In this document: positions 15,288 to 19,531 of the stretch, piece after piece | Layout of the letters: the number at the start of each line of letters is the position of its first letter | Numbering within the stretch: position 1 is the stretch's first letter | From: Phellopilus nigrolimitatus | Taxonomy: Eukaryota > Basidiomycota > Agaricomycetes > Hymenochaetales > Hymenochaetaceae | Assembly (NCBI GenBank): GCA_021029095.1 | Contig: JAJOHG010000005.1 | Span: forward strand, 930,001 to 994,000 | Length of the DNA: 64,000 nt | Reading direction: 5' to 3' | Notes under the pieces: generated by a model | What the model saw: only the letters and a program-made list of their open reading frames with translations | The model's database searches: none | What the model was told of the DNA's origin: nothing | Translations under genes and position numbers: made by a program

Positions 15288-17217
15288 ATGTCGCAAGGAG
15301 GCCTGCATTCGTTGGCCACGATCATAAAACGGCATGTTTTGCTACTGCCTTCTTGACACCTCGTGGTCTGATCTTATCCTTCATCGTATTCGTAGGCTCG
15401 AAGCTGCTACGTCTCGTCTCGAAGACCTCACGGTCACCCAAGCAAGCAACACGGCACCAAAGCGTGACGATGGGTCCGCTGATAAAGGCTCCACCAATAG
15501 CTTCAGTGCCCCTCCAGCCCCTCCACCCCCACCCCCTCCACCTCCTGCGCCTACCATGGCTAAGATTCCTAGGAGTGTCGAAGTATTCGACGAGAACATC
15601 ATTGATGGGAAGTTGAAGGCGTTTGTGAATCTGACCAAGTCCTTTGCTTCACCGGTTGTGATCGAACAGGTGCGTGACACGTCATTCCGACGCAACACAT
15701 AAAATTCAGCTTGGAGCTTATATACATTACGCCAAGGTCGGATATGTCGAGAGCGCGTTCAAGAACTTGCGCTCGGCGATCCTCACTGCCTCATCATGTA
15801 CCAAAGCAGATGCGAAGGCGATTAGCGTGCTCCTGGAACCCCTCTCGAAGGATGTGATGGCAGTCCTACAGGTCCCAGAAAAGAACCGAAAGGAGCGCGT
15901 CTGGTTCAATCATTTGCAGGTCATTGCGGAAGGGACGCCAAGTCTGGGCTGGATTGAAATTGTAAGCTACTAACTAAACATGTCCAAAAATCCAATTGCT
16001 TCATCGTTATTTATTTAGGAACCTAAACCAGGCCCCCATGTTGCGCAGATGAAGGAATCTGCCGAGTTCTATGGCAATAAGGTCATCAAGGAGTTTAAGG
16101 ACAAGTTAGTCTGCTGCTCTCTTACAAGATCCAAAGCATTAATTTGATCATTGCTTTGTAGGGATGCAAAGCATGTTGAGTGGGTTCGGGCATGGATATC
16201 TTTACTGGAAGAGCAGCGCAAGTATGTCATGGAATTCCACACAACAGGACTCGTCTGGAATCCGAAGGTTTGTCTATTTCTACCGCGTGAGACCACGTAT
16301 TGAACTCATGCTGAGCATTGTACGTAGGGCGTATCTCTGAGCCAGTACTCTGGAGGATCCACATCAGCTAGCGCTCCTCCGCCGCCACCACCTCCACCTG
16401 CAACAGCAAGTGCGCCTTCCTCTAGCACTGGGATAGGTGCTGTATTTGACGAGCTCAACCGCGGAGGCGAAGTGACAAAGGGCTTACGGAAGGTCGACAA
16501 GTCTGAAATGACGCATAAGAACCCCGACCTTCGTGTGTCTAACGTGGTTCCCGCGAGTGAAAAAGCTTCTCCGAAGCGTCCAGTTAAGCCATCGAAGCCC
16601 GCATCTCTGTCTGGAAAGAAGCCCTCCAAATTTGCGCTGGAGGGCAATAAATGGTTTATTGTAAGTGAAGAAGTGCTTTCATCGTTTCCTCCGTTAAAAA
16701 TGTTTCTTAGGAATATCAAGAAAACGAGTCTGGGCTCATCGTTGAGAATGCGGAGATTAACCAAACAGTTAATCTTTTCGCGTGCAAGAACACGACAGTG
16801 CTGGTCAAGGGGAAGGTCAACGCAGTCACGCTCGGTGAGCTACACGGCCGTTATTTGAATAAGAATATATGTTCAAAATTGCTAATCATCATCGCAGTCA
16901 ACTGTACCAAAACTTCTGTTCTCGTCGAATCTGTCATTTCGACCATTTCGGTGACCAACTCCCCATCCTTCGCGCTGCAGATTACTGGCGCTGCTCCGAC
17001 TATTCAACTCGACTCTACAGACTCCGGGCAGATCTATGTCTCGAAGGAATCTCTCGGAGTTGAAATCACGACAGCGAAATGCAGCTCAATCAACGTCAGT
17101 CTGCCTGTGGAAGGCGAGGAGGACGGAGTATTTGTGGAGAGGGCGGTACCGGAGATGTTGAGAACGACCATTAAGGATGGAAAATTGGTGACTACGATCG
17201 TAGAGCACTCAGGCTAA
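15288..17217 (+). CDS. SRV2: Adenylyl cyclase-associated protein CAP / SRV2
   Basis: CAP recycles cofilin-bound actin monomers and, in fungi, links Ras to adenylyl cyclase. The first exon encodes MSQGGLHSLATIIKR, and the second continues LEAATSRLEDLTV, the typical CAP start. In order there is the cyclase-binding helix, a first polyproline run (about 15510-15550), the helical folded domain, a second polyproline stretch (about 16378-16402), a WH2-like basic region and the C-terminal beta-helix (NKWFIEYQENESGLIVEN onward). Exons: 15288-15331, 15396-15669, 15710-15961, 16019-16104, 16162-16267, 16328-16660, 16711-16834 and 16898-17217. The first intron needs a GC donor (AAACG|GCATGT), because every GT alternative breaks the frame into LEAATSR. 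The gene is complete. Confidence 0.94.
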
Positions 17218-17394
17218 CCTTTTGCTATTTTCTTCCCTATACGTCTACTAATATACATTTGGGGTGTTCGTGGATGCTATACATTAATCGTTGCTTTGTT
17301 TTGGCTGAATCGAGTGAATTCACAATCTTTACCACGTGATGCGGATTAACTAGCACGAAAACAGCATTGAAATTTGAATGAGTGTGAATGCTTA

Positions 17395-17426
17395 GCCCCA
17401 GTGAAAAGTCACTCGTGTGAAATCGA
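17395..17426 (+). repeat. Left terminal inverted repeat (32 bp)
   Basis: It begins GCCCCAGTGAAAAGTCACTC and is identical over 32 bp to the reverse complement of 19468-19499. It is preceded by TTA at 17392-17394. Confidence 0.9.
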
Positions 17427-17759
17427 GCCGTATCGTAGCAGATCGTAGACAATCTTGTGTATTCGATTCAGATCGAGTGAACTCGGATGAGCTGTGTTGC
17501 GACTCAATTTAGACGTCTGATTTTCCGTTGCAACTTGCTCAGGAGATCGACGCGAATGAGAAAATTAGCTAAGTAAAAATAAATTTGCCCAACGAACTGC
17601 ACACACGGCTTATGTAAATTGAATTCGTCCCACAACTCAACCAGTCGCTCGAACTCGCTCGGACTTGTGCTCTCGTTCAAGTCGCTTCTCACGTGCTCAG
17701 TTTAGAACTCCGTTGCCCTCCGCCAAAAAATTTGCGGTTTTCACTTGATTGCCTTATGA

Positions 17760-17957
17760 CAAAACTTCTCTCCACCACCATCGCCCTCCACAGCAAAAGG
17801 CGATCGTCGGCTTCTCAAAGTATGTTTGCTGTGTGCGCTGCAGAAGCGCTGGGCCACCCAAGAGGATTGCATCAGCATACCTTTCGGCCGACAAGCACAA
17901 CGTCACCGTCGACTCAAAATCGCCGAGAACGAGCAAGAGTTGCACTTTAGCGAACAC
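17760..17957 (-). pseudogene. SEC31 fragment (ancestral coatomer element part), captured
   Basis: The minus-strand frame reads LVLGDFESTVTLCLSAERY, then ADAILLGGPALLQRTQQ, then TYFEK. This matches the conserved SEC31 segment in which GDFESAV...LC..ER.ADAILLA..GG.ELL.RTQ..YF is diagnostic. SEC31 is the outer COPII coat subunit. Only this short block is recognisable. Upstream in transcription order the sequence changes to a fragment of another gene on the opposite strand, and downstream it runs into the element's subterminal DNA. A few family residues are missing (the VRG between LLA and GGP), and no start or full gene is possible here. Confidence 0.7.
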
Positions 17958-18017
17958 ACTCCCGCAACGCTCGCCGCTGCGGACGGCGCCGCTGCGCTAC
18001 CCGTCATGCTCTTAACA

Positions 18018-18655
18018 GGCAATATCAAGTTTGAAAGTGCATGCTGGCCCCTTTCTTCCTCCCATCTCGGGCGTGCAGGAGACGAGGACCTAATCAGGTA
18101 CGCGTGGCCGCAGGACTATAGTTCCACGTCGACAAGCTGTCCTCCGCGCATGTCTACCTGCGCCTGCCCGACCGCGCGGATGGCGTGCCGGCGGGTGCGG
18201 CGGCGGGTGCGGCGCTGGGTGCGGCGCTGTCGTGGGACGCGCTCCCCGAGGCGCTGCTCGCAGACTGCACGCAACTCGTCAAGGCGAACTCGATCGAGGG
18301 TGCGTGGCGCCAGCCGGCCGTTCTCTTTCTCTTTCTTTTCTTTCTGTTCTGCGAGAGCTGCGGCGCTGGGGCGGGGACTTCGTCGGCTAAACTATGATAA
18401 TTGCTTTTTTCTTATGGTAGAAAATGGGAGACATGGCCGTCGGACAAATCCCTTTCAAGCGCGACAAAAATGTGCGTCCTTCCCCTCCCCCTTCTTCACT
18501 TTTCCTGGTGTCGAAACTCAAAAGTAACAGGTGAAGTGCGTGCCCCTCCCCTCATAAAAAAACTCCTGCTTACTTCGTCCGACCTCGATAGTACACGTTG
18601 CGAAGAGCGAGAATGCGATCGTGAGCCGGCTGAACAAGGCGAAGCTGAAGAAGTC
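18018..18655 (+). pseudogene. CCDC25-like (NFACT-R/DUF814 domain) gene fragment, captured and broken
   Basis: Plus-strand segments match the CCDC25/Jlp2 family in order. They are GNIKFE, then [68 protein letters not shown] and VHVAKSENAIVSRLNKAKLK. Breaks are visible. One frame shift between the DY and FHVDK blocks (about 18121-18124) removes the Trp expected there. The exon that should encode the N-VNVVYTPWSNLKK strand after NSIEG is absent. An Ala/Gly-rich insertion extends the loop after LRLPDRADG. Intron remnants with plausible splice sites are kept, which points to genomic rather than cDNA capture. The segment lies wholly inside the transposon and overlaps no host gene. Confidence 0.75.
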
Positions 18656-19112
18656 TGCTTCCGCATCCAATCACGCCGTACCGCCAAAGTCATCCCACAC
18701 AGGGACAGAGCGGTCATGGTCGACTCACCATCAACGGCTTTCATGACATCAGTGTGGTCTGACGCGACGCTCGTTCCCTGCTCGGACGGTGTACGTTCGC
18801 ATTCTTGTTCCTGTTCCGGCGAAAGAGACTACAGACTCGTGCACCTTACTCTCCTCAGCATCGAGCACGTCTACCGGCACTTGCGTAGATGTTGCAGTCG
18901 CCCTGATCTTCTCAACTGCTTCCACAACACACGTTGTGATCTCCGACTTCGAAAATCCAAGCAGCATGACGAGCTCTTCGCGTGAGTTTGCTTTGAAGAG
19001 ACTCGCGAGCGCCTTCCGGCTTGCTGCGTTGTGTCCCGCGCGGGTCGGTGTTGTGGATCCTTTCCGGATGGAAGGCGGTCAGGTCTGGTGTGCGGGGTGA
19101 GGGCGATTGGTG
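18655..19112 (-). pseudogene. Second SEC31-like fragment, captured
   Basis: The minus strand reads an open segment with SREELVMLLGFSKSEI and VVEAVEKIRATATSTQVPVD. Further on it reads DRSVPVWDDFGGTA, a stop, and LDAEADFF. The last part resembles the SEC31 stretch ending in an A-DFF motif just before the ancestral coatomer element. The first part has normal codon texture but I recognise it only by position. An in-frame stop and loss of frame beyond the block make it non-functional. It would lie upstream of the 17760-17957 block in a normal SEC31, with the CCDC25-like piece replacing what should be between them. Confidence 0.5.
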
Positions 19113-19467
19113 TGCAGGGCAAGCGTGACTGGTTGCTCGTCCTCGATGTCATTTTTGTTGCTGCGTGTTTTTATGTTTTAGCGTAGCGTACAACAAATAC
19201 AGTGCTCGATTTGATTTTATAAAGAAAAAAGTAATGTGATGAACTGTCAGATTTAATTCGATAACATCCGATGAGACACGATACATGAATAGAAATGATA
19301 CGATTTTGCGCGATCCTGCTATAGATTCTGTCGAATGAAAACGGGCCTGCTCGAATGATCCGATTTCACTCGTTTTCACTCATTTTGACGATAAATAAAT
19401 CGTTTTATTCTTAAAATATATTGTGATATCGGACCAGTTCGATTAGTCCTATGTCATGCGATCTAAT

Positions 19468-19499
19468 TCGATTTCACACGAGTGACTTTTCACTGGGGC
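19468..19499 (-). repeat. Right terminal inverted repeat (32 bp)
   Basis: Exact inverted copy of 17395-17426, followed by TTA at 19500-19502. Sequence similarity between the two ends stops immediately inside the 32 bp. Confidence 0.9.
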
Positions 19500-19531
19500 T
19501 TAGCGCTTAACGCTCAGCACAGACCATCAAG

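Follow-up and report, generated by a model that had tools for sequence, protein, structure and literature searches.

We found that a 2,101-bp segment of the window, the 64,000-nucleotide stretch analysed here (C445:930001-994000 in a 56.4-Mb assembly of 635 contigs), is best read, with a probability of about 0.88, as a non-autonomous Pack-TYPE DNA transposon that would depend on a CACTA-like Transposase_21 supplied in trans by relatives and would have gained its cargo by template-switch capture. It combines terminal inverted repeats (TIRs) and a target-site duplication with fragments of host genes whose parents lie elsewhere, it has no transposase of its own, and a putative autonomous partner is present. 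An element of the Pack-TYPE kind, holding pieces of two host genes, was what the sequence-only reading had proposed; this is borne out by further copies, by the parent genes, by an empty site and by the presence of similar ends on elements that encode a transposase.

The window element and its insertion site

The features of the window element are collected in Table 1. Its size, first put at about 2.1 kb, is confirmed by measurement, and the perfect long inverted repeat is also present, at 30 bp rather than the 32 bp originally read. What had been taken for a 3-bp TTA duplication is instead the middle of a 7-bp duplication, GCTTAGC, which consists of the 2 extra bases per side of the former repeat plus its flanking TTA; because GCTTAGC is nearly its own reverse complement, it had lengthened the apparent repeat. 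The element was described as lacking a transposase and none is seen in it: three of its open frames gave no Pfam match, and a DNA comparison with the C90 transposase gene gave no match. Just upstream we observe the end of an adenylyl-cyclase-associated-protein gene (window 16798-17217), and since the element stands just downstream of this gene end, its position is probably intergenic.

Table 1. Features of the window element (positions in the window)
Feature	Position	Strand	Remark
Target-site duplication GCTTAGC, left, 7 bp	17390..17396	.	single copy at empty allele C504
Window element	17397-19497		2,101 bp; perfect 30-bp TIRs
Left TIR, 30 bp	17397..17426	+	30 bases identical to right end
Left end common to other family members	17397..17802	+	78-91% to same end, 19 other loci
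SEC31 fragment 1	17803..17934	- (antisense)	125/141 identical to gene at C614
Filler, 7 bp, SEC31/CCDC25 junction	17935..17941	.	aligned to neither parent
CCDC25-type fragment with introns, broken frame	17942..18644	+	parent C346
SEC31 fragment 2	18644..19044	- (antisense)	341/413 identical to gene at C614
Right end common to transposase-bearing element C90	19131..19497	+	88% over 367 bp
Right TIR, 30 bp	19468..19497	-	
Target-site duplication GCTTAGC, right, 7 bp	19498..19504	.	

When joined by one GCTTAGC, the flanks of the window element match C504:1801-2270 at 470/470 positions; longer flanks match C504 at 99.9% over 1,244 bp and 99.05% over 1,265 bp, and the two flank matches overlap there by exactly 7 bp. 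The flank match with one GCTTAGC and the 7-bp overlap identify C504 as a counterpart of this locus, within the same assembly, that lacks the insertion. An empty site, which the sequence-only reading had looked to related strains for, exists here as one 7-bp GCTTAGC and not as TTA alone. C504 probably derives from a second nucleus or haplotype; APC1, GARS and COPB2 each also match two contigs. The window element moved recently.

A family with 7-bp target-site duplications

The assembly contains other copies and, in elements with similar ends, a transposase, whose joint absence would have refuted the sequence-only reading. A search for other copies revealed a family, with at least 82 stretches matching the window element (40 of 61 candidates scored), and an 18-bp end pattern occurs at 66 sites in the assembly, compared with 5 for the reversed control. 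When 44 of the 66 end sites were paired so that the two ends face each other, 22 elements of 1,735 to 15,644 bp resulted, the window element among them, with one-ended sites and C555 left out of the counts. Not every one of the 22 is independent, C434 having the same duplication and near flank as C623a. Exact 7-bp duplications border 20 of the 22 TIR-bounded elements (the exceptions, C625 and C623b, lack a matching one), and the longest flanking identity in those 20 is 7, tested up to 15 bp. The duplication follows the consensus NNTNANN, with T at position 3 in 19/20, A at position 5 in 19/20 and both in 18/20, compared with a TNA frequency of 5.4% over the positions of the window. In 20 elements the perfect inverted repeats are 18 to 41 bp long, in C246 and C1 just 5 bp, and CCCARTG stands at both ends in 20/22, with CCCAGTG/CCCAGAG in C246 and C1.

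Later insertions have broken up several family members, among them C603 (by a copia-type frame), C623a (by about 5.4 kb) and C334 (by repeats). C555 is split by about 27 kb, its ends lying near 757906 and 787048, 29 kb apart, and CCTGAGG flanks both of them. Subterminal ATCGW/WCGAT motifs, counted at 12 ends of 6 elements, numbered 3-8 compared with shuffle maxima of 4-10; because the count was above all 60 shuffles at 1/12 ends only, we claim no TnpA-like sites. The viral contigs gave two end-pattern matches, neither of which encodes a relative.

Transposase-bearing relatives

Transposase_21 (PF02992) frames were found in two members of the family, C90 (15,644 bp) and C246 (14,765 bp), which have ends similar to those of the window element and 7-bp duplications. 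The frames span 847 and 810 codons from stop to stop and score 37.8 and 35.9 bits (cut-off 28.6) in C90 and C246, respectively, and by DNA search the gene is present at just these two loci, both TIR-bounded. The ends of C246 match each other for 5 bp before the first mismatch. The two transposases are identical at 699/809 amino acids (86%), with differences at codon positions 1/2/3 of 84/50/210, a sign of purifying selection. They display the motifs DG-x3-Y...W, ADGP and D-x-M-H, and a PDB search with the transposase returned nothing useful (E 0.66). Common to both elements is a second frame with MVNDTVDNQIV repeats (55% over 489 codons, 129/137/197 by codon position), whose Pfam matches come without any single significant stretch. 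C246 has an uninterrupted counterpart at C24 (95%), and C90 has counterparts without the insertion at C368 (86%), C611 (90%) and C423 (84%), which are repeats and may not be allelic.

Judging from the shared ends, the window element is most likely moved in trans by the transposase of C90/C246-type relatives. Of the autonomous partner that had been envisaged, with a Harbinger or other DDE transposase, C90 and C246 show the similar ends and a transposase, which is of the Transposase_21 type. Three further members were rejected as autonomous partner, each lacking a Transposase_21 DNA match: C603 (7.2 kb) owes its size to the copia-type frame and C334 (5.0 kb) to the repeat insertions, and the structure of C43 (4.1 kb) was resolved in part.

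Captured SEC31 and CCDC25 pieces

The segments recognised earlier as SEC31 and a CCDC25-type gene align to parent genes at C614 and C346. The C614 gene has a 1,017-codon open frame that matches solved SEC31 chains (best E 7e-26), and the C346 gene contains the NFACT-R_1 domain PF05670. The CCDC25 fragment is identical to C346 at 354/459 and 249/329 positions, introns included (76-77% overall), and has 13 differences in 202 sites when compared with the parent exons. Retained introns had been ascribed to both pieces; this holds for the CCDC25 piece, with boundaries placed by eye, and the SEC31 piece, lying inside one open frame, is uninformative. The introns show that genomic DNA was captured in the case of CCDC25.

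Both pieces occur together in five copies, the window element, C368, C468, C614a and C163, and in all of them CCDC25 stands in place of 191 bp of SEC31, its left junction bearing a 7-bp filler and its right junction being blunt or sharing one base. The element C614b carries an uninterrupted SEC31 piece (673 aligned bases, 85%) without CCDC25, and its right SEC31 breakpoint is common to the other SEC31-bearing copies, indicating that SEC31 was captured first and CCDC25 later. Within CCDC25, 187 bp are kept in the window element and the parent and missing from the four sister copies, and about 75 bp are kept in the sister copies and missing from the window element. Movement followed capture, as the five copies have five different 7-bp duplications and the window element has an empty allele.

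C614a lies about 3.3 kb past the end of the SEC31 open frame, which may be chance or a trace of the capture site. Partial SEC31 copies on C434, C146 and C2, 95% identical to the intact gene and joined to other sequence, differ from it mostly at third positions (53-56 of 81-85 changes), and no W-type TIR, that is, one like those of the window element, surrounds them within the 4.8 kb examined.

Other cargo in the family

Beta'-COP (COPB2) DNA lies in sense orientation between the same two ends in 12 of the 22 elements; C90 has it solely within a nested element, and 9 elements are without it. COPA/B propeller and WD40 domains are found in the COPB2 parent, located at C23, and the COPA/B TPR domain in frames from both C334 and C43; C43 contains a Piwi-domain piece as well (E 4.7e-44).

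The transposase-bearing elements carry cargo too. C90 contains 2.1 kb of APC1 (2,133 bp aligned, 94% to C146, with APC1 domains), which in comparison with C246 was inserted with no loss of element DNA; at its left edge the junction is blunt or has a single base in common, and at its right edge there is a 4-bp microhomology with APC1, CTCG. Na/Ca-exchanger DNA (PF01699; 87-91% to C334) is present in both C90 and C246, as is Argonaute-like DNA matching the locus C90:607600-610800. This locus, the one matching place at which Argonaute domains were checked, has ArgoN, ArgoL1, ArgoL2 and Piwi domains above the cut-off; the C246 piece has ArgoL1 above and ArgoN below it. The Argonaute-like piece has at least 33 matching places besides C90 and C246, a large family even when haplotype double counting is allowed for. 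Two further inserts in C246, matching C182/C57 (91-94%) and C334/C12 (91%), gave no Pfam match.

Nested in C90 is a second, hAT-like gene-carrying element of 1,975 bp (C90:61390-63364), with ends TAGGGCATACC and 8-bp duplications TAATAGTA in C90 and TAGGGTAG at C98, all read by eye. Its cargo comprises COPB2 DNA (87%), DNA matching C190 at 94% and DNA matching, at 93%, a gene at C379 that a PDB match identifies as glycyl-tRNA synthetase. The element has five more copies, with 98-100% identity.

Fate of the captured pieces

A free copy compared with a constrained gene is expected to differ at the three codon positions in a ratio of about 1:1:2, and two free copies evenly. We observed 5/8/8 over 530 sites between the SEC31 pieces of the window element and C368, 26/26/47 for the APC1 cargo and its parent (two frames summed), 20/20/44 for C603 COPB2 and its parent, and 15/18/39 for C614b SEC31 and its parent. 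With even or roughly 1:1:2 counts in several comparisons, free decay is the main pattern. Other counts are uneven: the SEC31 of the window element differs from the present gene at 15/8/42, a third-position share above 1/2 (one-sided p 0.012), and from C614b at 15/17/29, above the 1/3 expected (p 0.015). Uneven as well are the Na/Ca exchanger of C246 (21/9/29) and a single COPB2 frame of C631 (2/4/17). As a whole, the counts support the view that, exceptions apart, the captured pieces decayed as pseudogene sequence; the uneven SEC31 counts may reflect a diverged source allele or some remaining constraint.

Relation to known systems

The CMC clade is given 2-5 bp duplications, mostly CA..TG ends, C(2)C and H(3-4)H motifs and a DDE triad (PMC12730594). 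The present family has the Transposase_21 (tnp2) type transposase of CACTA/EnSpm (CMC), with PF02992 above the cut-off, but its duplication is 7 bp instead of 2-5 bp and its ends are CCCARTG instead of 5'-CA..TG; with these two departures it is CACTA-like by enzyme only. Two D motifs are seen in the transposase, together with cysteines in the form C-x3-C (HCRLYC), and the third acidic residue and the H motif were not placed. At E 0.01 both transposases match PF02992 alone, with no KDZ or Plavaka domain. The TRC elements (PMC1636069) resemble the family in their Transposase_21 domain and in having like DG-x3-Y...W and D-x-M-H motifs, and some animal repeats start with CCC; they differ in their 2-bp duplications, as do Cryptococcus CNIRT6 (3 bp) and CNEST (2 bp) (PMC12810828), from the 7 bp found here. 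For fungal elements of the CMC type, published duplications measure 2-3 bp (PMC12810828, PMC12730594).

Plant Pack-CACTA and Pack-MULE elements are likewise non-autonomous TIR elements with host-gene fragments (PMC8903248, PMC13317346, PMC8616336), whereas here the genome is fungal, the ends are CCCARTG, the duplication is 7 bp and captures occur in transposase-bearing elements too. For animal Pack-TIRs, gap filling or fork switching with short microhomology is proposed for capture; those elements are mostly single copy (PMC8277862), in contrast to the multicopy family, serial capture and resident transposase gene observed here. In ascomycetes, DNA transposons also multiply host-gene sequence, hAT elements carrying histone H3 and a Tc1/mariner element an ORF (PMC3538342, PMC6710886), and the Pyrenophora case is reported as a first example of transduplication in fungi (PMC3538342). 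The transduplicated H3 of Pseudocercospora and relatives has no introns, comes from a transcript or retrocopy and moves in hAT elements that make 8-bp duplications (PMC6710886), in contrast to the capture of genomic DNA from several genes and the CACTA-like transposase seen here. Fungal DNA transposons bearing TET/JBP, in basidiomycetes and EnSpm among others, represent gene uptake as well, of one dioxygenase gene proposed to aid the transposon (PMC12730594), unlike the broken host-gene pieces found here, in non-autonomous elements too. Pleurotus helitrons are reported not to capture host genes (PMC4289320).

Alternative explanations and proposed mechanism

The 3-bp TWA duplication is characteristic of PIF/Harbinger elements, and TTA is placed symmetrically at both ends of the window element, which is why the sequence-only reading favoured this superfamily. 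The duplication is however 7 bp in the window element and in 20/22 elements overall, with TTA the middle of GCTTAGC, so a non-autonomous PIF/Harbinger element fails; the transposase-bearing elements C90 and C246 also carry Transposase_21, and we regard this assignment as very improbable. That a hAT7-type transposase moves the elements and the Transposase_21 gene is itself cargo would fit the 7-bp duplication, a length known for hAT7. Duplications of 7 bp are described for hAT families in Puccinia, as against 2-5 bp for the CACTA-like clade (PMC12730594). No hAT transposase was found in the elements: 19 distinct frames, mostly from elements, gave no hAT hit at E 0.01. The hAT dimerisation domain occurs at 7 places in the genome, none near these ends; 4 of the places are on contigs that lack any listed end site, and the other 3 share a contig with end sites at a distance of about 100 kb or more. 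The purifying selection on the Transposase_21 gene also speaks against this explanation, which we consider improbable. If no transposon were involved and an inverted repeat bordered a segmental duplication of gene fragments by chance, the element family, the duplications and the empty allele would be left unaccounted for; nothing was found in favour of this reading, which is practically negligible.

Concerning the mode of capture, two neighbouring elements could have enclosed a gene and been joined by flanking-element deletion, as proposed for Arabidopsis Pack-CACTA (PMC8616336, PMC13317346), and the sister copy C614a is indeed a neighbour of the intact SEC31 gene, at a distance of a few kb. 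Yet in sequence C614a differs from SEC31 by 12.1%, close to the 12.3-13.4% of the four other CCDC25-bearing copies; APC1 sits within an existing element with no element DNA lost and a 4-bp microhomology, and CCDC25 lies inside SEC31 with a 7-bp filler, making this route unlikely. We favour template switching because the CCDC25 introns are kept, the junctions are blunt or almost blunt or show 4-bp microhomology or 7-bp filler, and APC1 is a clean insertion. In the proposed sequence of events, an ancestor gained genomic SEC31 DNA between its ends and a CCDC25 segment later replaced 191 bp in the middle of SEC31, as can be read from the sister copies, the copying most likely proceeding by template switching in gap repair, to which the few junctions point. 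Insertion took place here at an NNTNANN target with a 7-bp duplication, as the duplication and the empty allele attest, most likely through an enzyme that the 15-kb relatives encoding CACTA-like Transposase_21 would provide in trans, consistent with the shared ends, and the captured pieces then decayed as pseudogene sequence, in line with most of the codon-position counts.

Significance

Pack-TYPE gene shuffling is described mainly for plants and lately for animals. In the open-licence PMC literature, as far as its available excerpts extend and with absence counting as weak evidence, we found no report of a Pack-TYPE family in a basidiomycete; the fungal reports found there concern other systems (intronless ascomycete H3 in hAT elements, TET/JBP, helitrons). 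With the order of capture preserved in sister copies, two transposase-bearing partners and an insertion-free allele, both capture and movement could be followed directly in this genome. A more tentative possibility is that the family represents a distinct CACTA-related lineage, with CCCARTG ends, a 7-bp NYTNARN duplication and Transposase_21 plus a repeat-bearing protein, that shuffles genes serially, even its transposase-bearing members capturing core genes, and whose Argonaute and antisense pieces could feed or blunt small-RNA silencing. If true, a tnp2-type transposase with 7-bp duplications would widen the known range of its clade.
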